A stretch of 64,000 bases of DNA from Aequorivita aquimaris. Lineage in GTDB: Bacteria > Bacteroidota > Bacteroidia > Flavobacteriales > Flavobacteriaceae. The position numbers and the translations under genes were made by a program. How positions within the stretch are numbered: position 1 is the stretch's first letter; each line of letters starts with the position of its first letter. The stretch covers positions 124,001-188,000 of the forward strand of contig NZ_JRWG01000002.1 of assembly GCF_001573155.1 (NCBI RefSeq). The letters are read 5' to 3'. Shown in pieces: positions 42,775 through 53,014 of this stretch. The notes beneath the pieces are model-generated. The model made no database searches, was not told the origin of the DNA, and saw only the letters and a list, made by a program, of their open reading frames with translations.

Positions 42775-44106
42775 CTACAAATTGCCTTTTATTTTTTGAA
42801 AAATCTGAAGTGCATTACCATCTGTTAAGCGTGAAATATAATTGCAACACTCCATTAAATATTCATAGACAGATCGGTTTTGATGAGGATGGGAGTCAAT
42901 AAGTTGCAGCAAAATTTTGTCATAATGCCGCGCTATTCCATTTTGATAATTTTCAAAAGCAGAAGTAAATGTTTCCAGCAAAGTTGATAATATAGTATAG
43001 CCTGCTATTTCTTTTTCCATCACCTCTGTACTTTGATAAACTTTTTCAATGCTAATTTTTATTATGTCAGCAATTTGGGCCTTGTATTGACTTCTGTCTA
43101 ACAATGCTTCAGAAAAAGTTCCTCTCAGAATTTCTTCTTCATTTTCAATAAAAATAGAAGCTGCTTCGGCAATTAAAGTATTAATGGCGAGTGATCGCAA
43201 ATAAGCCAACCTGTCCTGCACCGTTTGCAGACGTGAGTAGATGTCTTTTTTCAAACTATCTCGAACCAAATTAATCAAATATTCCAGCGCAATGTCTTCT
43301 TCAATCAAACCCAGGTTTATACCGTCTTCAAAGTCAATAATAGTATAGCAAATATCATCTGCAGCTTCTACAAGAAATGTAAGTGGGTGGCGGGAATAAC
43401 CGTTATTTCCCCTACTTAAAAGTCCAAGTTCTGTGACTACTTCATTGAAAAATCCAGTGTCACTTTGGAAAACGCCGAATTTTTTATCGGCAACGTGAGA
43501 AGTAGGTTTTTTGGGAAGCGATTGTTTGGGGTATTTCATAAATGCACCAAGCGTTGCGTACGTCAATCGCAGTCCGCCCTCAACGCCATTTTTGGATTCG
43601 GTTAAAATTTTAAAACCGTTTGCATTTCCTTCAAAAGCAACCAAATCCTGATATTCCTTCTCGGAAAGTTGATTTTTAAAACGTTTGCCATTTCCGTTAA
43701 GAAAGTAATCGCCAATGGCCTTTTCGCCACTGTGACCGAACGGAGGATTGCCAATATCGTGCGCCAAAGCAGCGGCGGCAACAATCGCCCCAAAATCGTT
43801 AAACTGATACCCGTGCACACCCTGCAATTGTGGGTGTTTTTTCAAAATTTCCTTCCCAACAATTCTTCCCAAAGAGCGGCCCACCACGGAAACTTCCAAA
43901 CTATGCGTTAATCGGGTGTGAACAAACGAAGTCTTTGAAAGCGGGATAACTTGGGTTTTATCCTGCAAACTTCGGAAAGCGGAGGAAAAAATTACCCGGT
44001 CATAATCTACTTCAAACCCCAAACGGGTCTCGTTCTCCTCAATTCTCAGTCTTTTGTTTTTATCTCCGTGCTTCCGTAGTGAAAGCAACTGTTCCCATTG
44101 CATCAT
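42775..44106 (-). CDS. dgt: dGTP triphosphohydrolase (dGTPase)
   Basis: 443 residues. Cleaves dGTP, or dNTPs more broadly, to the nucleoside and triphosphate, adjusting the nucleotide pool. It is an HD-domain enzyme: H68 in RLTHSLEVS, H116-D117 in AALAHDIGNPPFGHSGE, and a later aspartate near ADDICY. The N-terminal SSAFRSLQDKTQV is the usual substrate-gate region. Two adjacent methionines allow a start one codon later. It is divergent from the phosphate-type promoter at 44176-44254. Confidence 0.9.
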   Translation of the reverse strand: MMQWEQLLSLRKHGDKNKRLRIEENETRLGFEVDYDRVIFSSAFRSLQDKTQVIPLSKTSFVHTRLTHSLEVSVVGRSLGRIVGKEILKKHPQLQGVHGYQFNDFGAIVAAAALAHDIGNPPFGHSGEKAIGDYFLNGNGKRFKNQLSEKEYQDLVAFEGNANGFKILTESKNGVEGGLRLTYATLGAFMKYPKQSLPKKPTSHVADKKFGVFQSDTGFFNEVVTELGLLSRGNNGYSRHPLTFLVEAADDICYTIIDFEDGINLGLIEEDIALEYLINLVRDSLKKDIYSRLQTVQDRLAYLRSLAINTLIAEAASIFIENEEEILRGTFSEALLDRSQYKAQIADIIKISIEKVYQSTEVMEKEIAGYTILSTLLETFTSAFENYQNGIARHYDKILLQLIDSHPHQNRSVYEYLMECCNYISRLTDGNALQIFQKIKGNL

Positions 44107-44175
44107 AATTTTAAAAATTTTGTAGGCAAGATACTATTTTCAAAAGGCAAACCAATCAATTTTTTTTGGTTTCGG

Positions 44176-44254
44176 CTTAACGTTTAGCTAACCCTAAAAT
44201 GACGAACTGGTAACTTCAGTTTAACACAAACCTTACATAAGAGAACCATCTTTG
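44176..44254 (+). promoter_or_regulatory. Phosphate-box-like promoter of the lipoprotein/TonB receptor genes
   Basis: Six 7-bp units lie in exact 11-bp register: CTTAACG (44176), GCTAACC (44187), AATGACG (44198), GGTAACT (44209), TTTAACA (44220), CCTTACA (44231). The -7 element CATCTTTG ends at 44254, with its TTTG at 44251. The units at 44209, 44220 and 44231 are therefore at -42, -31 and -20 from that TTTG. There is no TTG at -33, as expected for an activator-dependent promoter. The 7+4 spacing is that of PhoB-type sites; the activator is inferred. Confidence 0.65.
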
Positions 44255-44282
44255 CCCCAAGAAATTAATTTATAAAATTAAG

Positions 44283-45539
44283 ATGAAACTAATGAAAAAA
44301 TTCTTTTTACCTCTAATAGCGATTTTTGCTCTTGTGCTTAGCGTTAGCTGCAGCAGTAATGACGACGGACCAATTATTGATCCAGACCCAGATCCCGTAA
44401 ACAATAAACTATCTGGTCAAATTACATCAGACATGACATTAACCAATGATGTTATTTGGGAACTTGATGGCCGTGTAACAGTTACCTCCGGCGCTACCTT
44501 AACCATTAATGAAGGAACAATAATAAAAGCCTATGCGGGTCAAGAAGCTAGTGCTGCTGTACTTATTATTGCTAGAGGTGCAAAAATTGAAGCCAATGGA
44601 ACAGCTGATAAGCCAATTATTTTTACTTCAATTGCAGATAATATAGCGTTGGGACAAAAATCTGGCACTAATCTTACTGAAAATGACAGAGGCCTTTGGG
44701 GCGGTGTTATAATATTAGGTAAGGCAAAAGCCTCTTTGTCTGGTGATGCCCTTGAAAACCAAATTGAAGGTATTCCAGCCAGTGACACCAATGGTCTTTA
44801 TGGAGGATCTGATAATGCAGATGATTCAGGTACTTTGAATTATGTTTCCATTCGCCACGGAGGTACTTCTATTGGTGATGGTAATGAAATCAACGGTCTT
44901 ACACTTGGAGCCGTGGGAACAGGAACTTCTATTTCAAACATTGAAGTTGTAGCAAATGTGGATGATGGCATCGAGTGGTTCGGAGGATCTGTAAATGTTT
45001 CAAACGCAATAGTTTGGGCCTGCGGTGATGATGCCCTTGATATAGACGAGGCTTATTCCGGTACAATTTCAAATTCTGTTGCAATCTTAGGAAATGTTTC
45101 AGACCACGCTTTGGAAATTGACGGCCCAGCAGGATCGTTGGAAGGAAGATTCACATTGGACGGTATCACGTTAATCGGAAATACTACTACAGAAAATGGC
45201 GAATATGCAGATTTGCGCGACAGAGCAATGGGCACCCTAAAAAACATTTATGCAGTAGGTTTTAAAGCAGATTCTGATGTAGAGTTAGACAACAATGCAG
45301 TGGCACAAAACTTCCTCGATGGAAAGCTATCGTTTTCAAATTGGACTGTAAGCTTACCTAGTGGTGTTGCTAACGCTAATGACATTTTTGTTGAAAAAAC
45401 TGGCGAAGGCGAAACACCGATAATCCTTAATCCATCATTTACTGAAAGAGCTGCTTCTTGGGCAAACTCTGGAAATTCAGGAGGAGCCAATCTTTCAAAC
45501 TTTACTTGGACTTACACACAATCTAAAGGAGCTTTCTAA
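44283..45539 (+). CDS. Surface lipoprotein, beta-helix-like, paired with a TonB receptor
   Basis: 418 residues. The lipobox (LSVSCSSNDDG) gives lipidated Cys23, followed by an Asp/Pro linker typical of exported Bacteroidota lipoproteins. The body has many short beta strands with NGT, GGS and DGI turns (TLTINEGTIIKAYAG, VSIRHGGTSIGDGNEINGL), suggesting a right-handed beta-helix. No enzyme motif is seen. It is not SusD-like. It precedes the TonB receptor by 92 bp and follows the phosphate-box-like promoter, so it is probably the outer-face partner of that receptor, binding or presenting a phosphorus source. The ligand is inferred, not shown. Confidence 0.75.
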   Translation: MKLMKKFFLPLIAIFALVLSVSCSSNDDGPIIDPDPDPVNNKLSGQITSDMTLTNDVIWELDGRVTVTSGATLTINEGTIIKAYAGQEASAAVLIIARGAKIEANGTADKPIIFTSIADNIALGQKSGTNLTENDRGLWGGVIILGKAKASLSGDALENQIEGIPASDTNGLYGGSDNADDSGTLNYVSIRHGGTSIGDGNEINGLTLGAVGTGTSISNIEVVANVDDGIEWFGGSVNVSNAIVWACGDDALDIDEAYSGTISNSVAILGNVSDHALEIDGPAGSLEGRFTLDGITLIGNTTTENGEYADLRDRAMGTLKNIYAVGFKADSDVELDNNAVAQNFLDGKLSFSNWTVSLPSGVANANDIFVEKTGEGETPIILNPSFTERAASWANSGNSGGANLSNFTWTYTQSKGAF

Positions 45540-45579
45540 AAATTTGTATTCTCATTTAACTTGTTTTAAATCAATTAGC

Positions 45580-45616
45580 AATTTGCTCGTCTTTCTAAAA
45601 GAAGACGGGCAAATTT
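45580..45616 (+). terminator. Hairpin between the lipoprotein and TonB receptor genes
   Basis: AATTTGCTCGTCTTTC pairs with GAAGACGGGCAAATT (one bulge, one G-U). The tail TTTATAAAT is a poor U run. It may partly stop transcription, lowering the receptor relative to the lipoprotein, or protect the 3' end of the first gene. Confidence 0.5.
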
Positions 45617-45631
45617 TATAAATATATTTTT

Positions 45632-48463
45632 ATGAAAAATATTTTCCCATTGCTTATTGCAATGTTTTTATTTCAAATTTCCTTTTCACAAACAGGTGTT
45701 GTTACGGGGGTTATAAATGATGGTGAATATAATGACGTGCTTTCTTTTGCAAACGTTATTGTGAAAGGTTCACAAACGGGAACAACCTCTGATTTTGATG
45801 GCAAGTACAACCTAAAGTTAGATGCTGGAACTTACACACTTGTTTTCTCGTTCGTTGGATATCAAACTAAGGAAATTACAGAAGTAAAAATAAATCCAGG
45901 CCAAACCACAACTGTTGATGTTACGCTTAATGCTTCTGCTGGACAACTGGATGAAGTGGTTGTTACCACAACTGCCCGTAAAAACACAGAAGCTTCTGTT
46001 TTAAGCATTCAGAAAAACTCAGTTACCCTAATGGATGGCTTGTCTTTGGAATCCATTAAAAAAACTGGTGCAAGCGATGTGGCTTCAGCAGTTCAAAACG
46101 TTCCGGGCGTTTCGGTACAAGGAGGAAAATACGTGTATGTTAGGGGCTTAGGAGACCGATACACAAAATCCATACTAAATGGCATGGAAGTGCCCGGTTT
46201 GGACCCTGATAGAAATACACTGCAACTGGATATTTTTCCTTCACAAATTCTAGAAAATGTATTGATTACCAAATCTGCAACTGCAGACCAGCCAGCCGAC
46301 TTTACCGGCGGTGTAATAAACATCGTAACCAAGGACATTCCTAGCAGGGCTGAATATAGTATTTCGCTTGGAGTGGGCTACAACGCTGATTTTCATTTCA
46401 AAAACAACTACTTAACAGGCGATAAAAGTGGTACAGACTTTTTAGGTTTTGATGACGGGCTAAGGGACAATCCTATTCCCCAATCGCAACAAGTGCCTTT
46501 ACCGCAACAGGACGGAGAGCTTGTTCGAGATTTAACCCAACGGTTTAACCCACAAATGGCAGCAGAGCGGGAACAAAGTTTTATGAACTATAACTTTGCT
46601 ATAACAGCGGGAGATCAATTTGATGTAGGCGAAAATAAATTAGGGTATTTGGCATCAGTGTCATACCGAAATGAAACAAAGTATTACGATGAATACATCA
46701 ATGGCCAGCTATACAGAAAAGACGAATCAGACAGATCTAATTTTGAACTTTTAGCAGACCGCACACAAACTGGTGAGTTAGGAAACAACACCGTTTTAAT
46801 TAGCGCCCTTGGTGGGTTGACATTTAAAACCGAAAAATCAAAATATCAATTTAATGTACTTCACATCCAAAATGGAGAATCTGAAGCTGGCATTTTTAGG
46901 CTGGATAATTTTATAGTTAGCAGCAATACGATTAAAAAAGACAACCTTACCTACGTTCAGAGATCCATTACAAATGGACTATTAAAAGGCACACATACCC
47001 TTGGCAGTAATAATGACTGGAATTTGGAATGGAACCTATCGCCCTCCCTTGCCAAGGTGGACGATAAAGATTTTCGCACAACTCCTTTTAGAGTATCCAT
47101 AAATCCAACTACGGGCGAGGAAGTATTCACAATTGAGCCAAGTGAATCTGGCGATGCGTCAAGGTTTTTTAGATCACTTGAAGAATTAAATCTTGCCGGA
47201 AAAATTGGTCTTGAAAAGGAGCACAATCTTTTTGGATTTGAAGCAAAAGCTAAAATTGGCGGTGCTTTTACCCAAAAAGAAAGAGACTTTGAAGTAATAA
47301 AATACTCTTTGCCGTTGCTTAATTTTTCGTCGGCAACATTTGGAGGTAATCCAAACCAACTATTGATCCCAGAAAATATTTATGACCCAAATACAAATAG
47401 CGGAACCTATGTGCGCCAAGACTCCAACGATTCAGATTCTTACAATTCAAAAATACAAATCGCAGCAGGGTATATAGCTGAAGAATTTAAGGTAACAAAT
47501 TGGATGAATGCAGCTTTAGGGGTGCGGTTTGAAAAATTCGACTTGATTTACACAGGTGAAAGACAGGACGGAACCAGACTGGAAGATGCCAAAATTTTAG
47601 AAAAATCAGACTTTTTCCCATCGGCAAATCTAATTTTTGATTTGAATGAAGATGAAAACAAAAAAATACGTACTTCCTATTCAAGAACTACGGCAAGACC
47701 TTCATTTAAAGAAGCCTCACTCGCCGAAATTTTTGACCCAATAAGCAGTACCACATTTATTGGCAATATAAACCTTCAGCCTACTTATGTAAATAATTTT
47801 GACATTAGATACGAACAATATGGAGAAGCAGGAGATTTCTTCGCAATAAGCGGATTCTATAAATCTTTTACTGATCCTATTGAGCTTTCATTTATCAGGA
47901 GGGCATATGGACAATACACGCCACTAAACTTAGGAGACGCAAAAGTTTTTGGGGGTGAGCTAGAAATAAGAAAAAATCTCGGGTTTATAAGCGGTTTACA
48001 GAACATAGATTTCAATTTAAATTTCTCACTTATAGAATCGCAACAGCAGTACAGTGAAGACGAAAGGACAGGAAGGCTAGATAATTTACGTACCGGTGAA
48101 ACTCTTGACGACAATAGACAATTGCAAGGCCAAAGCCCTTATTTAATAAATCTTGGCTTCAATTATAAAGATGCGGAAACTGGACTCCAAGGAGGCCTTT
48201 TCTACAATACTCAGGGAAAAACCCTTCAAATTGTAGGCGCAGCAGATGTGGCAGATGTTTATACAATGCCCTTTCACAATGTGAAACTGAACATTTCAAA
48301 AAGCTTTGGATCAAACAGAAATTCAACAATATCCTTAAAGTTTGACAACTTATTAAATGACGATATTGAAAGCGTTTATCAATCGTTTGGAGCAGAAGAT
48401 CAACTATTTTCCAAATGGAGTCCGGGACAAGAAATTAGTTTGGGCTACTCACTCAAATTTTAA
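45632..48463 (+). CDS. TonB-dependent receptor with carboxypeptidase-regulatory-like N-domain
   Basis: 943 residues. Signal peptide (1-19, ending SFSQ). An N-terminal CarboxypepD_reg-like domain (about 22-110, SDFDGKYNLKLDAGTYTLVF). A plug domain (about 115-240) with VPGVSVQGGKYVYVRGLGDRY and PADFTGGVINIVTKD. A 22-strand barrel follows, ending in SLGYSLKF. It imports a substrate across the outer membrane using TonB/ExbBD. It does not look SusC-like and has no SusD neighbour. Upstream context (phosphate-box promoter, lipoprotein) and downstream context (phosphate porin, Pit) point to a phosphorus-containing ligand. Confidence 0.9.
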   Translation: MKNIFPLLIAMFLFQISFSQTGVVTGVINDGEYNDVLSFANVIVKGSQTGTTSDFDGKYNLKLDAGTYTLVFSFVGYQTKEITEVKINPGQTTTVDVTLNASAGQLDEVVVTTTARKNTEASVLSIQKNSVTLMDGLSLESIKKTGASDVASAVQNVPGVSVQGGKYVYVRGLGDRYTKSILNGMEVPGLDPDRNTLQLDIFPSQILENVLITKSATADQPADFTGGVINIVTKDIPSRAEYSISLGVGYNADFHFKNNYLTGDKSGTDFLGFDDGLRDNPIPQSQQVPLPQQDGELVRDLTQRFNPQMAAEREQSFMNYNFAITAGDQFDVGENKLGYLASVSYRNETKYYDEYINGQLYRKDESDRSNFELLADRTQTGELGNNTVLISALGGLTFKTEKSKYQFNVLHIQNGESEAGIFRLDNFIVSSNTIKKDNLTYVQRSITNGLLKGTHTLGSNNDWNLEWNLSPSLAKVDDKDFRTTPFRVSINPTTGEEVFTIEPSESGDASRFFRSLEELNLAGKIGLEKEHNLFGFEAKAKIGGAFTQKERDFEVIKYSLPLLNFSSATFGGNPNQLLIPENIYDPNTNSGTYVRQDSNDSDSYNSKIQIAAGYIAEEFKVTNWMNAALGVRFEKFDLIYTGERQDGTRLEDAKILEKSDFFPSANLIFDLNEDENKKIRTSYSRTTARPSFKEASLAEIFDPISSTTFIGNINLQPTYVNNFDIRYEQYGEAGDFFAISGFYKSFTDPIELSFIRRAYGQYTPLNLGDAKVFGGELEIRKNLGFISGLQNIDFNLNFSLIESQQQYSEDERTGRLDNLRTGETLDDNRQLQGQSPYLINLGFNYKDAETGLQGGLFYNTQGKTLQIVGAADVADVYTMPFHNVKLNISKSFGSNRNSTISLKFDNLLNDDIESVYQSFGAEDQLFSKWSPGQEISLGYSLKF

Positions 48464-48483
48464 AATGTATTACTTGAAAAATA

Positions 48484-48516
48484 AAAAACCCTAGCATTTG
48501 AGCTAGGGTTTTTTAT
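48484..48516. terminator. Bidirectional terminator
   Basis: AAAAAACCCTAGC and GCTAGGGTTTTTT form a perfect 13-bp stem around ATTTGA, between the receptor gene and the convergent small secreted protein. Confidence 0.85.
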
Positions 48517-48534
48517 GTATAATAGAATTAGAGT

Positions 48535-48894
48535 TTAATTAGAAACAATTTGAATATCGTCAGATTTCCAAGTTACAACCTTGGCAATACGGGCATCAGC
48601 ATAAGAAACTTCTTTTATGTCTTCATTTGTAAAGAAATACCACGTGCCCACTTTTTCACCATTATTATATTGCGCAATGGCAGTCTTATTACCGTTAAAA
48701 TCATAGCTCACCCATTCTCCAGTTAGCTTATTGTCTGCAGTATAGTAGCCAGTTTGTGCAACCGTTCCATTATCGTGATATATTGTTGCCTTAATCACAT
48801 TGCCATCCAAATAATACGTGTTTTTATTAGCATTTTGTGCAAATGCCATTGAAACTGTTAATACGATTGCAAAAAGGGTGATTAAATTTTTCAT
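48535..48894 (-). CDS. Small secreted MORN/YwqK-like protein
   Basis: 119 residues. Signal peptide 1-19 (ending AFAQ). The mature part has repeated strand-turn units of the MORN/YwqK type: KATIYHDNGTVAQTGYY, GEWVSYDFNGNKTAIAQYN, GEKVGTWYFF. Such repeats appear in many flavobacterial secreted proteins, some annotated as antitoxin YwqK, but no toxin is adjacent. A perfect -7 element (TAAATTTG, 48931-48924 minus) lies upstream. Function unknown. Confidence 0.75.
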   Translation of the reverse strand: MKNLITLFAIVLTVSMAFAQNANKNTYYLDGNVIKATIYHDNGTVAQTGYYTADNKLTGEWVSYDFNGNKTAIAQYNNGEKVGTWYFFTNEDIKEVSYADARIAKVVTWKSDDIQIVSN

Positions 48895-48923
48895 TTTTCA
48901 AAGTTTTAGATTTTCAGAATAAT

Positions 48924-48931
48924 CAAATTTA
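48924..48931 (-). promoter_or_regulatory. -7 element of the MORN-like gene promoter
   Basis: TAAATTTG on the minus strand is a perfect consensus, 30 bp before the ATG. The -33 region has no TTG; it overlaps the 11-bp-spaced boxes at 48936-48975. Confidence 0.5.
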
Positions 48932-48935
48932 CAAA

Positions 48936-48975
48936 ATTAACGCTTACGAAACCATTTGGTAACGTTAACTTAACA
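48936..48975 (+). promoter_or_regulatory. Cluster of four phosphate-box-like units
   Basis: ATTAACG (48936), CGAAACC (48947), GGTAACG (48958) and CTTAACA (48969) are in exact 11-bp register. They are oriented rightward like the units at the other three sites, that is, away from the MORN-like gene. The nearest rightward TTTG is at 49021, which places the units at -85, -74, -63 and -52, one base off the register of the other promoters. Confidence 0.5.
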
Positions 48976-49025
48976 TTAAACCTTTAACCTGTTTATTTTC
49001 AGTGTTTTAAAAAACAATCCTTTGT

Positions 49026-49190
49026 TTCGAATCAATATCTTAATGATTTGGTAAAGCTATCTTCACACTAAGTTATGATCGATAGATTTTCTTTGTAATT
49101 GCCTATTATATTGGGCAATTTTTGAAATCGTTTAGTTTTTGTCGACTAGATTTTCAAATGGGGCTGTTCGTTATGGACAGCCCTTTTTTA
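49026..49190 (+). ncRNA. Candidate phosphate-regulated small RNA
   Basis: About 165 nt without a usable reading frame. It lies downstream of the box cluster at 48936-48975 and of a weak -7 element ending in TTTG at 49024. A hairpin is at 49097-49120 (AATTGCC/GGCAATT). It ends in a strong intrinsic terminator at 49161-49190 (GGGCTGTTC/GGACAGCCC, then TTTTTT). That terminator follows no gene on the plus strand, which is the main reason to propose a transcript. Could also be the relic of a lost gene. Confidence 0.35.
49161..49190 (+). terminator. Orphan intrinsic terminator
   Basis: A 9-bp stem GGGCTGTTC/GGACAGCCC around GTTAT with six Ts. The nearest upstream plus-strand gene, the TonB receptor, already has its own terminator about 650 bp before. 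Confidence 0.75.
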
Positions 49191-49220
49191 TTAAATTTAT
49201 AAGAAACTAAAGAAACGTTG

Positions 49221-49266
49221 CTTAACATTACGGAAACATACAATTAGTTTAAAATTTAGTCCTTTG
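49221..49266 (+). promoter_or_regulatory. Phosphate-box-like promoter of the OprO/P porin
   Basis: CTTAACA (49221) and GGAAACA (49232) are 11 bp apart and lie at -42 and -31 from the TTTG at 49263-49266. A degenerate AAGAAAC unit is at 49210. The -7 element itself is weak (GTCCTTTG). The spacing equals that of the promoters at 44254 and 50554. Confidence 0.6.
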
Positions 49267-49295
49267 CAGCGACAAAAACTATAATCGATTTTAAA

Positions 49296-50498
49296 ATGTA
49301 CCTAAAGAATATTTTCTTTTTTGGTTTTCTATTTTTATGTGTTTCCGCGGTCCATTCACAAATAAGCGTTCCAAAATTTGGTGACGGCATGCTTAACGTT
49401 GTGGGCAAAGACAGTACGTGGAGCGTCCGTTTTGCGCCACGAATTCAAGTACGGGCCAATTCTTCCTGGGATCACGATGGCGATAAATATGGAAAACCGG
49501 AACAAAGCTTTATCATCCGCCGTGCTAGATTAAAATTTGATGGATTTGCTTATTCTCCAAAGCTGCGCTATAAAATTGAATTAGGTCTTTCAAATTTTGA
49601 TGTGGCAGGAGCTTCAGAATTCACTGGCAATGCTCCTCGAATCATTTATGACGCAGTAATAATGTGGGAGTTCTACAAAAATCTGGAGCTATGGGCAGGA
49701 CAGACAAAACTTCCCGGGAACAGGGAACGTGTAATATCTTCCGGTAATCTTCAGCTTATAGACCGTTCCAGACTTAACAGGTTATTCAATATTGACAGGG
49801 ATCTTGGAGTACAATTGCACCATAGTTTTAAGGCTTCTGAAAATTTCCTAATTCGCGAAATGTTTGCCGTTTCACAGGGAGAAGGTAGAAATATTACAAC
49901 CGGAAATATTGGAGGGTTTCAATATACAACCCGCGTAGAGCTATTGCCTTTTGGCGAATTTACCAAAAAAGGTGATTACATTGGCGGAGATATTTATAGA
50001 GAAAAAACTCCAAAACTTGCCATTGGCGCCACTTATGATTTTAACAATAATGCCGTAAAAACCCGAAGCAATCAAGGCAGCTATATGCGCAATGATATCG
50101 GTTTTTACGAAACCAATATAAGTACCATTTTTGTGGATGCTATGTTTAAATATAACGGGTTTTCATTAATGGGAGAATATAGTTATCGCGATGCTGAAAA
50201 CCCTCTAGTAATCAATAGTGATGGTTCTATTACAGAGCAGGAGGTTTATACGGGGCAAGGGCTCAATTTTCAAGGAGGCTATGTTTTTAAAAACAATTGG
50301 GAAATTTCCGGACGTTTTACCACTATTTTGCCAGACAATACATTTTCTTCCAATGACACACAAAATCAATATACTTTGGGAGGGTCTAAATATATAGTGG
50401 GCCATAAATTAAAAATTCAAACAGATTTATCATATTCAACCATTGCGGGTGAAAGCAGCTCTTTGGAATACAGGCTGGGTTTTGACCTTCATTTTTAA
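49296..50498 (+). CDS. Phosphate-selective porin OprO/OprP family
   Basis: 400 residues. Signal peptide 1-22. The beta-barrel fills the rest, with RFAPRIQVRANSSWDHDGD and SFIIRRARLKFDGFAYSPKLRYKIELG near the N-terminus, the hallmark start of OprO/OprP-type porins, and a final strand ending LGFDLHF. It should carry orthophosphate or polyphosphate across the outer membrane. It lies 78 bp before the Pit transporter gene, and each has its own phosphate-box-like promoter. Confidence 0.88.
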   Translation: MYLKNIFFFGFLFLCVSAVHSQISVPKFGDGMLNVVGKDSTWSVRFAPRIQVRANSSWDHDGDKYGKPEQSFIIRRARLKFDGFAYSPKLRYKIELGLSNFDVAGASEFTGNAPRIIYDAVIMWEFYKNLELWAGQTKLPGNRERVISSGNLQLIDRSRLNRLFNIDRDLGVQLHHSFKASENFLIREMFAVSQGEGRNITTGNIGGFQYTTRVELLPFGEFTKKGDYIGGDIYREKTPKLAIGATYDFNNNAVKTRSNQGSYMRNDIGFYETNISTIFVDAMFKYNGFSLMGEYSYRDAENPLVINSDGSITEQEVYTGQGLNFQGGYVFKNNWEISGRFTTILPDNTFSSNDTQNQYTLGGSKYIVGHKLKIQTDLSYSTIAGESSSLEYRLGFDLHF

Positions 50499-50508
50499 GA
50501 AAAATACA

Positions 50509-50554
50509 GATAACAATTTGGTAACAATCAATCCTATTTTATATGGGAAATTTG
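50509..50554 (+). promoter_or_regulatory. Phosphate-box-like promoter of the Pit transporter
   Basis: GATAACA (50509) and GGTAACA (50520) are 11 bp apart at -42 and -31 from the TTTG at 50551-50554 (-7 element GAAATTTG). This is the cleanest pair in the window. The first unit lies 11 bp past the porin stop codon. Confidence 0.65.
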
Positions 50555-50576
50555 CACCAACTTAATTAAAACTAGA

Positions 50577-52820
50577 ATGGATAATATTTATTTATTAATG
50601 ATTGTTGCACTTGCCGCGCTTGCAATTGCAGATCTAGTGGTTGGCGTTAGTAATGATGCCGTAAACTTCTTAAACTCAGCCATTGGCTCTAAAGCACTTT
50701 CCTTTAGGACTATTTTAATAATAGCCAGTTTAGGTATTTTCATTGGTGCCGTTTTCTCCAGTGGAATGATGGAAGTGGCGCGAAAGGGCATCTTTGTCCC
50801 CGGAGAATTTTACTTCGATGAAATAATGATTATTTTCATGGCAGTAATGATTACCGATATCTTACTGCTGGATTTCTTTAATACTATTGGATTGCCCACA
50901 TCTACCACGGTCTCCATCGTTTTTGAACTGCTGGGAGCTGCCGTTATTATGGCGTTGATAAAAATAGGCCATAACGATGCGGAAACCATTTCAGCCATCA
51001 CAAAATACATCAACACCGAAAAAGCGGTAGAAATTATAACAGGAATTCTACTTTCGGTTGTGATTGCTTTTACCGTGGGGGCAGTAGTTCAATACCTGTC
51101 GAGGCTAGTATTTACCTTCCACGTTGAGCGAAAAATGAAATATTTCGGGGCTATTTTTGGTGGTTTGGCCCTTACCTGTATTAGTTATTTCATCCTCGTA
51201 AAAGGATTAAAGGGTACGCCATTTTACGGAAGTTTTAAAAACATTATTGAAAGCGACACGTGGTTGCTTATCGGCGGTAGCTTCATATTCTGGACGGTTT
51301 TCTCACAGCTTTTTATGATGATTTTCAAGAAGAATATTCTCATAATCGTAATTGCTGTAGGTACTTTCAGTCTTGCCCTTGCGTTTGCGGGGAACGATTT
51401 GGTAAACTTTATAGGCGTACCGATGGCGGCCTACCATAGCTACATAGATTGGGCAGCTTCCGGGGTGGCGGCTTCAGATTACAACATGCACAGTCTGGCA
51501 GATCAGGTGCCCGCAGAACCCTTGCTTCTATTTATTGCGGGTGGTATTATGGTACTTACCCTTTGGTTTTCCAAAAAAGCACGTACCGTTTCTGATACCG
51601 AGATAGACCTAGCCCGCCAAGGCGAAGGGCACGAAAAGTTCAGTCCCAATATGCTTTCGCGCTTTTTGGTAAAGTCGAGTACACAGGTTGCAACTTATTT
51701 TGAATTTATTATTCCGAAATCGCTTCAAACCAAAATAGATAAGCGTTTTGAAAAACCGGTAGTAAATCTTCCAAAGCACAAAACCTACGAACTTCCTGCC
51801 TTTGACATGATCCGTGCGTCCATAAACCTTATGGTTGCGGGTATTTTGATCGCTACGGCGACGTCAATGAAACTGCCGCTTTCCACCACCTATGTAACCT
51901 TTATGGTAGCCATGGGTACGTCCCTTGCCGATAGGGCTTGGGGCCGCGAAAGTGCCGTTTATCGCGTGGCAGGGGTTATGAATGTAATAGGCGGATGGTT
52001 CTTTACCGCATTTGTGGCCTTTACGGCTGCCGGCACGCTGGCATACCTAATCTATATTGGAAGGGGCGCCATGATTGCCGTATTGCTGCTATTGGCCATC
52101 CTTTTGTTGGTTCGAAATTATCTTTCACATAAAAATAAGGTGAAATTGAAACTGGACAAAAGCGGACTGAAAAAGACCGAAAGCAAAACCGTTCAGGGAA
52201 TTATCCAGGAAAGTGCCGAAAATATCAGTAATGTTGTCTCACGTTCAAATAAAATTTATACCGATATGTTGCGCGGCCTTGCCAAACAGGACACCAAAAA
52301 ACTGAAAAAGAGCAAAAAAGGTGTAAATAAACTGAATGACGAAGTAGAGGAACTGCGTGATAATATTTTCTACTTTATCAAGAATCTGGACGAGACCAGC
52401 GTTCGCGGAAGCAATTTCTACATTATCATCCTCGGCTATCTAACCGATGTTGTACAGTCGCTGGAATTTATTTCAAAGGCGAGCTACAAGCACGTGAACA
52501 ACAATCACAAGGCGCTTCGTTTCAACCAAATAAAGGATCTTCAGGAAATAGACAACCATTTGGAAGAGCTTTTAAATGAAATTGAAGACATCTTCCACAA
52601 AAAGGAATTCCAGCGCATCGGGAATGTACTTGAGAAGAAAGACGAAATCTTCGCAAGCCTTTCAAATAAAATTGAAAAGCAAATAGCCCGAACCCGCACC
52701 GAGGAGTCAAGCCCTAAAAACACCACTTTGTATTTCAGCCTATTGCTTGAAACTAAAGATCTGGTAACGGCCTTGATGAACTTGATGGAAGAATATTACA
52801 CCAGTTATAAGAAAGCGTAG
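50577..52820 (+). CDS. Inorganic phosphate transporter (Pit) with C-terminal PhoU-like domain
   Basis: 747 residues. The N-terminal 520 residues form a PiT/PHO4 transporter with two PD001131-type repeats (GVSNDAVNFLNSAIGSKAL near 25 and FAGNDLVNFIGVPMAAYHS near 275). These are split by a long cytoplasmic loop (about 340-405). About 535-747 is a helical PhoU/DUF47-like domain with long coiled coils (KSKKGVNKLNDEVEELRDNI). In many bacteria Pit and the DUF47/PhoU protein are separate genes. Here they are one chain, so regulation is built in. Imports phosphate with cations across the inner membrane. Confidence 0.92.
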   Translation: MDNIYLLMIVALAALAIADLVVGVSNDAVNFLNSAIGSKALSFRTILIIASLGIFIGAVFSSGMMEVARKGIFVPGEFYFDEIMIIFMAVMITDILLLDFFNTIGLPTSTTVSIVFELLGAAVIMALIKIGHNDAETISAITKYINTEKAVEIITGILLSVVIAFTVGAVVQYLSRLVFTFHVERKMKYFGAIFGGLALTCISYFILVKGLKGTPFYGSFKNIIESDTWLLIGGSFIFWTVFSQLFMMIFKKNILIIVIAVGTFSLALAFAGNDLVNFIGVPMAAYHSYIDWAASGVAASDYNMHSLADQVPAEPLLLFIAGGIMVLTLWFSKKARTVSDTEIDLARQGEGHEKFSPNMLSRFLVKSSTQVATYFEFIIPKSLQTKIDKRFEKPVVNLPKHKTYELPAFDMIRASINLMVAGILIATATSMKLPLSTTYVTFMVAMGTSLADRAWGRESAVYRVAGVMNVIGGWFFTAFVAFTAAGTLAYLIYIGRGAMIAVLLLLAILLLVRNYLSHKNKVKLKLDKSGLKKTESKTVQGIIQESAENISNVVSRSNKIYTDMLRGLAKQDTKKLKKSKKGVNKLNDEVEELRDNIFYFIKNLDETSVRGSNFYIIILGYLTDVVQSLEFISKASYKHVNNNHKALRFNQIKDLQEIDNHLEELLNEIEDIFHKKEFQRIGNVLEKKDEIFASLSNKIEKQIARTRTEESSPKNTTLYFSLLLETKDLVTALMNLMEEYYTSYKKA

Positions 52821-52842
52821 TAAATTCTAGAACACCTTTAGC

Positions 52843-52875
52843 AAAAAGGAGTCCGAATCGGGCTCCTTTTTCTTT
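52843..52875 (+). terminator. Terminator after the Pit gene
   Basis: AAAAAGGAGTCCG pairs with CGGGCTCCTTTTT (one G-T pair), followed by CTTTTT. Confidence 0.85.
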
Positions 52876-53014
52876 TTAAAATTTGAAGTAACGCTAAACT
52901 TTATAGGGCATCTGCCGTATTTTGATGCTTTCGGAACCGATTTTTCACCAAAATAATTCTCCGTTTCAAATTAATGTTGGAATATTGTTTCAGCAACCAA
53001 TTAATCTCAACATT

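Follow-up and report, generated by a model that had tools for sequence, protein, structure and literature searches.

We analyzed a 64,000-nucleotide (nt) stretch of the Aequorivita aquimaris genome (the window; the genome, G000, is 3.15 Mb long and 99.97% complete) in which a putative small RNA gene precedes the gene of its predicted target, a phosphate-selective porin, and in which both promoters carry phased heptamers of the kind expected for a PhoB-like regulator. Coordinates refer to the forward strand, on which all but one of the genes concerned lie. A lipoprotein gene without a Pfam match (44283 to 45539) and a TonB-dependent receptor gene (45632 to 48463), both taken from the list of open reading frames (ORFs) and Pfam searches, are followed by a MORN-like gene on the opposite strand, which scores just under the Pfam cut-off and lies between the receptor and porin genes. 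Next come the small RNA gene of about 90 nt (49100 to 49189), the porin gene, assigned by Pfam to the phosphate-selective porin family Porin_O_P (49296 to 50498), and a PHO4/Pit phosphate permease gene (50577 to 52820; ORF list and Pfam). An earlier sequence-only reading of this DNA had described several promoters here and overlooked the small RNA gene between them.

Phased promoter boxes in the window and in relatives

The sequence-only reading held that the promoters of the lipoprotein, porin, and Pit genes share heptamers at a fixed distance from a TTTG element, and a direct check of the sequence finds all six heptamers in place, each exactly at -42 or -31 from TTTG. Before the lipoprotein gene these are GGTAACT (44209) and TTTAACA (44220), with TTTG at 44251 to 44254; before the porin gene, CTTAACA (49221) and GGAAACA (49232), spanning 49221 to 49238, with TTTG at 49263 to 49266; and before the Pit gene, GATAACA (50509) and GGTAACA (50520), spanning 50509 to 50526, with TTTG at 50551 to 50554. 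When both strands of the window, with their 1279 TTTG, are searched for [AT]AAC at -40 and -29 of TTTG, the three promoters are the only matches; the same search in 200 dinucleotide-preserving shuffles of the window yields 0.19 matches on average and 2 at most. The six-unit, 11-bp register described for the lipoprotein promoter (44176 to 44237) is also present: CTTAACG (44176), GCTAACC (44187), AATGACG (44198), GGTAACT (44209), TTTAACA (44220), and CCTTACA (44231), of which the units at 44198 and 44231 are poor. The grouping of three promoters stands; a fourth in-register promoter with weaker units, that of the small RNA, had escaped notice. Its units CTTAATG, GGTAAAG, and CTTCACA (49039, 49050, and 49061; span 49039 to 49067) stand at -53, -42, and -31 of the TTTG at 49092.

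We also noticed a further conserved box, GGTAACG-ttaa-CTTAACA (48958 to 48975), in the sequence and in the alignment of relatives. Missed by the earlier reading, it is flanked by the MORN-like gene and the small RNA, stands 63 and 52 bp before a TTTG at 49021 and out of register with it, and may be a site for the divergent gene or a distal site of the small RNA promoter.

The same register recurs in relatives. Among 82 distinct porin promoters, NN[TA]AACA units are found at -31 from TTTG in 76, at -20 in 61, and at -42 in 19, and one 11-bp phase is common to 158 of the 171 units. In 80 small RNA promoters, scored with a looser unit pattern (TTAA/TTACA/TTCAC), units start at -53 in 70, at -42 in 42, and at -30/-31 in 39, with smaller out-of-register peaks at -25 (14) and -46 (9). 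TAA[CT]-N7-TAACA precedes the Pit gene in all 20 fetched relatives, even where the upstream gene differs, and TTTG occupies the aligned place behind this box in 17 of the 20, as judged by eye from the alignment.

The small RNA gene and its complementarity to the porin leader

The ends of the small RNA gene were placed from its fold and alignment, with a predicted 5' end. TAnnTTTG is reported at -12 to -5 of the transcription start in the text of PMC9723704, and we used this spacing to predict the 5' ends of both the small RNA and the porin mRNA. The predicted fold comprises a 5' hairpin (about 49097 to 49120), a seed hairpin (about 49121 to 49158), and a terminator hairpin (49160 to 49183) with a T-run to 49189; the segment from 49097 to 49190 forms these three hairpins at -36.8 kcal/mol (z = -9.08). 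The core TTTAGTTTTTGTCGACTAGATTT (49131 to 49153), recognized from relatives and the fold, holds UUUGUC as a predicted hairpin loop. Across all 14 aligned rows of the stretch before the porin in relatives the block AATCGTTTAGTTTTTGTCGACTAGATTTT is identical, and the terminator behind it varies in sequence while keeping its pairing. An Rfam search of 44000 to 53000 at E values up to 1 gave 5 matches, none at gathering score and none within 49100 to 49189, and no ORF of at least 100 codons is listed at the locus. By these sequence features, including its own promoter and an intrinsic terminator, the gene appears to be non-coding.

In a collection of genomes from 84,980 species, the exact 23-base core occurs in 34 stretches; the named organisms are Aequorivita, Patiriisocius, Cochleicola, and Ulvibacter, and the rest are metagenome-assembled genomes (MAGs) titled Flavobacteriaceae or Bacteroidetes. 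One MAG, CALTCK01, carries the exact core on two contigs (L071, L082) whose aligned upstream sequences are the same, which probably reflects duplication during assembly. A first covariance model (R1, 33 sequences) matches 78 of 397 Flavobacteriaceae genomes at E ≤ 0.01, and a second (R2, 47 sequences) matches 200 of the 397 at E ≤ 0.001, about 144 genomes having E < 1e-7 by hand count. The best R2 match outside the family reaches 45.6 bits, and because the many weak matches there reveal background within E ≤ 0.001, 200 of 397 is an upper figure; the distribution suggested by these models is accordingly claimed for Flavobacteriaceae only. Each of the 9 terminator pairs has two-sided changes among 47 diverse sequences. 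The 13-pair structure, which was specified by hand on alignment A2, has a covariation score of 0.455, which none of 500 shuffles attains, and 10 two-sided pairs, a number attained by 7 of 500. A2 replaced a first alignment fold, A1, in which terminators were misaligned and only the middle hairpin appeared, without covariation. A profile search for Hfq (PF17209) gave no match in the 99.97% complete genome; 5 of 14 control genomes match.

The porin leader (49271 to 49296) is complementary to the small RNA through GACAAAAACTA (49271 to 49281) and CGATTTTAAAA (49286 to 49296). The predicted transcription start, 49271, is the G of GACAAAAACUA, giving a leader of 25 nt, and the predicted duplex over the two segments (-23.8 kcal/mol) extends from the predicted first nucleotide to the start codon. 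We examined this complementarity in 101 core-bearing loci, namely the 34 exact-core stretches, the window, and 66 of 67 further model matches. The R1 rows outside this set are 8 that were unfetched (E 0.0064 to 0.0099), L126 to L128 (from the same genome and two congeners), and L172, which was dropped for want of the core; in that genome R2 matches another site, L236, which does contain the core. A Porin_O_P-type ORF lies downstream in 88 of the 101 loci, searched to 1.9 kb where the sequence allowed, although species recur among the loci (e.g., L083/L133 and L088/L131), so that these counts are not independent. The remaining 13 were excluded from the pairing counts: 5 have fewer than 400 bases left or show the leader motif with a cut or different ORF, and 8 have neither. 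Porin starts were misassigned at L070, L157, L252, and L253, and L245, truncated at the end of its contig, reads GACAGAAA.

A C or T followed by GACAAAAA is present in 86 of the 88 porin leaders, the exceptions being L179 (GATAAAAA) and L092 (GACATACAA). We also compared x1, the small RNA base before AGUUUUUGUC, with y1, the leader base after GACAAAAACU. The x1-y1 states are T-A in 71 loci, A-T in 13, T-T in 2, and A-A and T-G in 1 each, and 85 of 88 thus pair. Among the model-found loci of the tree alone, 55 of 56 pair at this position (0 of 20,000 permutations). Parsimony on the porin tree, a tree of one gene with 86 tips (2 of the 88 left out), assigns 6 changes to x1, 10 to y1, and 10 to the joint state, so that each change in x1 can fall on a branch that also has a change in y1. 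In contrast, the pair closing the inner hairpin at its outer end (columns 57-72), which contains the internal partner of x1, fails in 13 of 47 sequences. Cognate duplexes average -21.47 kcal/mol versus -17.49 kcal/mol for swapped ones (0 of 2000 permutations). Compensation is also seen at L254, where x1 pairs as C-G (small RNA UUACAG with leader CUGUAA), and at L252, where a G-C pair lies within the core (small RNA GGUUUUUGUC with leader GACAAAAACC). Both loci belong to 20 matches unique to R2, hand-picked as 14 of the strongest and 6 weaker ones and examined afterwards, all of which precede a porin ORF. Taken as sequence comparison, these data point to a conserved seed that has kept its complementarity to the target leader through compensatory changes.

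This complementarity persists where the two genes are apart. Whole-genome searches in seven of the eight genomes whose loci had neither porin nor leader motif nearby found a porin with the leader motif elsewhere in five, about 3 kb downstream in G138, G338, G115, and G395 and on another contig in G275. A complementary leader kept away from the small RNA would favor action in trans over a cis attenuator.

Several features of the neighborhood vary. Two porin types occur behind the small RNA, KFG.G... and NPF[ST]FKW.NGFK...; the second is found at L069, L070, L075, L077, L081, L091, L092, L097, and L099, and among these the leader motif is missing only in L092. At L136 and L175, Pit is the first ORF found after the small RNA and no porin intervenes. 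The A. vladivostokensis record (L087) has the same porin locus, and the Pit protein is 82 to 100% identical in 23 searched Aequorivita genomes. The lipoprotein/TonB-receptor pair (44283 to 48463) is variable in the relatives L049 to L068: a near-identical pair is found in 2 of 20 and one about 70% identical in 1 of 20, with matches of only 25 to 37% identity in 13 of 20 and none in the stretch covered in 4 of 20, as if such modules were swapped between relatives.

Identity of the box and its regulator

The sequence-only reading took the phased units for the phosphate box of a Bacteroidota PhoB and knew of no described consensus for the group. The second point is superseded, as a PhoP motif of Flavobacteriia whose best-conserved bases are TTTAACA was published in 2022 from DNA affinity purification sequencing (DAP-seq) of Riemerella anatipestifer PhoP, according to the text of PMC9603813. 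The first point remains the best reading with a reservation: direct heptamer repeats every 11 bp at a fixed promoter distance lie before phosphate-uptake genes of the Porin_O_P and PHO4 families, but the PhoB-like protein falls below curated cut-offs. A TTAACA half-site resembles that of Bacillus subtilis PhoP. Profile searches find two OmpR-type regulators in the genome, one RprY-like and one PhoB-like with a PhoR-like kinase behind it. The PhoB-like protein scores 218.1 bits against a cut-off of 296.2 for TIGR02154 and 209.3 against 270 for NF053854.

The possibility that a regulator other than PhoB, such as the RprY-like protein, binds the boxes, in which case the circuit would not be a phosphate circuit, gains from these scores and from three further results. 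The genome has no PhoU match in a profile search; the phoB promoter has no forward unit exactly at -42, -31, or -20; and a loose genome scan shows no enrichment. That scan, suggested by the sequence-only reading as a check, combined two [AT]AAC units at flexible spacing with TTTGC and gave 18 matches against 16 for a reversed-pattern control. The scan, which required TTTGC, is informative at the exact spacing only, where the whole genome yields 5 matches: the three promoters described above, one before a MoxR ATPase gene, and one inside an ORF. As a whole it gives the phosphate-box reading weak support. Upstream of the PhoB-like gene (L196 2172-2430, G000 C4), three GTTA motifs do stand 11 bp apart, in the opposite orientation only, and form a possible autoregulatory or divergent phosphate box. 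The MoxR gene, identified by visual inspection of its sequence, carries the box of the three promoters with identical spacing (L005, G000 C2:443689-443733, minus strand).

Against a different regulator, the TTTAACA of these boxes coincides with the core published for the PhoP motif of Riemerella, and moxR, whose counterpart here follows the fourth exact-spacing promoter match, is listed in a Riemerella gel-shift legend headed "Identification of PhoP binding" (text of PMC9603813). Moreover, the Flavobacterium johnsoniae phoBR operon includes a TonB receptor and lipoproteins that respond strongly to phosphate, along with a porin from the family found here (main text of PMC8115612). We consider another regulator quite unlikely and regard a PhoB-type phosphate box, by sequence a well-supported reading, as the best account of the phased units; its consensus is not new.

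A putative porin brake, its alternatives, and known systems

Based on these observations, we propose that a PhoB-like regulator would bind NN[TA]AACN-type heptamers every 11 bp upstream of the Bacteroidota TTTG, at promoters that would each drive the lipoprotein-TonB receptor pair, the porin, the Pit permease, or the small RNA. The RNA of about 90 nt, with three hairpins and UUUGUC presented in the loop of the middle one, would base-pair in trans with the porin mRNA along the 25-nt leader, starting at the predicted first nucleotide and reaching the AUG. Shine-Dalgarno leaders are not known from flavobacteria, this genome included. A block of initiation or destabilization of the mRNA is the most likely outcome, since the leader is the sole landing stretch for the ribosome. 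PhoB would switch on the porin and the porin's own brake together, and the phased boxes at both promoters make such an incoherent feed-forward loop the likeliest circuit, in which the outer-membrane porin would be limited during phosphate starvation. That a PhoB-driven small RNA pairs with the porin leader in trans and damps the phosphate porin is, in our judgment, likely. The comparative support for this comes from the promoter register, the structure of the gene, conservation, the way small RNA and leader co-vary, and complementarity without adjacency; binding by PhoB, expression, trans action, a repressing rather than activating effect, and the physiological role are what we infer.

Several points weigh against this proposal. 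The OprP porin is not induced by phosphate depletion in F. johnsoniae (-1.3, p 0.245), according to the main text of PMC8115612. Complementarity between small RNA and leader is mostly lost in A. vitellina (L092), x1-y1 is unpaired in 3 of 88 loci, and pairing in a gapless register falls outward, to 77 of 88 at x2-y2, 51 at x3-y3, and 31 at x4-y4. Roughly one third of the 88 loci were retrieved with the exact core, which predetermined their x1, and the permutation counts overstate independence because the loci are related. Eight of the 101 loci have at least 885 bases downstream with neither porin nor leader motif, and in G052 and G198 (the latter 76% complete) a whole-genome search brought up no leader-bearing porin. 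Lastly, conservation of the 3' half of the core (ACTAGATTT) exceeds what pairing with the porin would require.

This last point would fit a wider regulon in which the porin is an anchor target only and the ACTAGATTT half acts on further mRNAs or contacts a protein. This half is as conserved as the seed in close relatives, albeit among sequences fetched by that very core, and some genomes have the small RNA without a nearby porin; the ACTA part, however, also pairs inside the hairpin. In the A. aquimaris genome, TTTG-N1-7-GACAAAAA has 18 matches, below the 23 of a control, and only the porin and L258 have an ORF start close behind the match, L267 lying inside a gene. At L258 (G000 C1:130331-130345, minus strand), TTTGTGAGACAAAAA stands 9 nt before a 146-codon ORF; only the 8 bases GACAAAAA appear complementary, making this a weak candidate for a second target. 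The complement of a 17-mer with 3 mismatches gives 23 genome matches against 42 for its control, in a search too strict to recover even the porin leader. We hold a wider regulon to be possible if rather doubtful. Activation, in which pairing would shield the mRNA 5' end from decay and the porin would need both promoters, seems unlikely: pairing begins at the predicted +1, where such protection could act, and both promoters have phased boxes, but a duplex reaching the AUG of a 25-nt leader should hinder initiation. Finally, the boxes alone might function, the complementarity being left over from an inverted duplication or reflecting a DNA element common to both places. Extreme conservation of the core and a separation of little over 100 bp in most loci speak for this, yet compensatory changes at several positions, complementarity persisting at about 3 kb or across contigs, and a covarying terminator hairpin make this account very improbable.

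The proposed brake can be put more broadly: an Hfq-free Flavobacteriaceae small RNA, under the same phosphate box as its target, would cap the porin via the first nucleotides of its mRNA, with lock-and-key co-evolution in a third to a half of the sampled genomes, at the core of the phosphate response. Our confidence in this full statement is evenly divided. If true, a post-transcriptional porin brake would alter how low-phosphate transcriptomes of Flavobacteriaceae, a major marine group, are read. The RNA-porin pair, with its natural compensatory variants, offers a ready test of translation control by small RNAs in Bacteroidota, and the 11-bp array at a fixed TTTG distance provides a search rule for the regulon.

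Parts of this system resemble known ones. Riemerella PhoP shares the TTTAACA core, and the legends of its gel shifts name the promoters of moxR, a TonB receptor, and an outer-membrane protein; the passages of PMC9603813 compared here describe a single conserved motif without a small RNA, whereas here an 11-bp-phased array lies at -42/-31/-20 from TTTG. The F. johnsoniae Pho regulon likewise has a phoBR operon with a TonB receptor, lipoproteins, and an OprP porin (pf07396), and phosphate depletion strongly induces the lipoproteins and TonB receptor there but leaves OprP uninduced; "pho box," "motif," and "srna" are absent from the main text of PMC8115612. Rfp18 of Flavobacterium psychrophilum is also a structured small RNA, conserved in flavobacteria and with predicted pairing via one stem-loop, set apart here by description only: its reported targets are metalloproteases, and "porin" occurs 0 times in the main text of PMC9723704. 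Our literature searches, judged mostly from listed entries, brought up no recognized PhoB-driven, porin-pairing small RNA in Bacteroidota. We know of few small RNAs in this group whose target is backed by co-evolution. Among enterobacteria, MicF, MicC, and OmrA/B are stress-controlled, Hfq-dependent, porin-repressing RNAs that act in trans by pairing with the leaders of outer-membrane protein mRNAs. The predicted trans pairing with such a leader is the likeness to our RNA, compared by description and, in sequence, through Rfam; here, in contrast, the genome has no Hfq match, the RNA adjoins its target under the same type of box, and pairing is predicted to start at the first nucleotide of a 25-nt leader.

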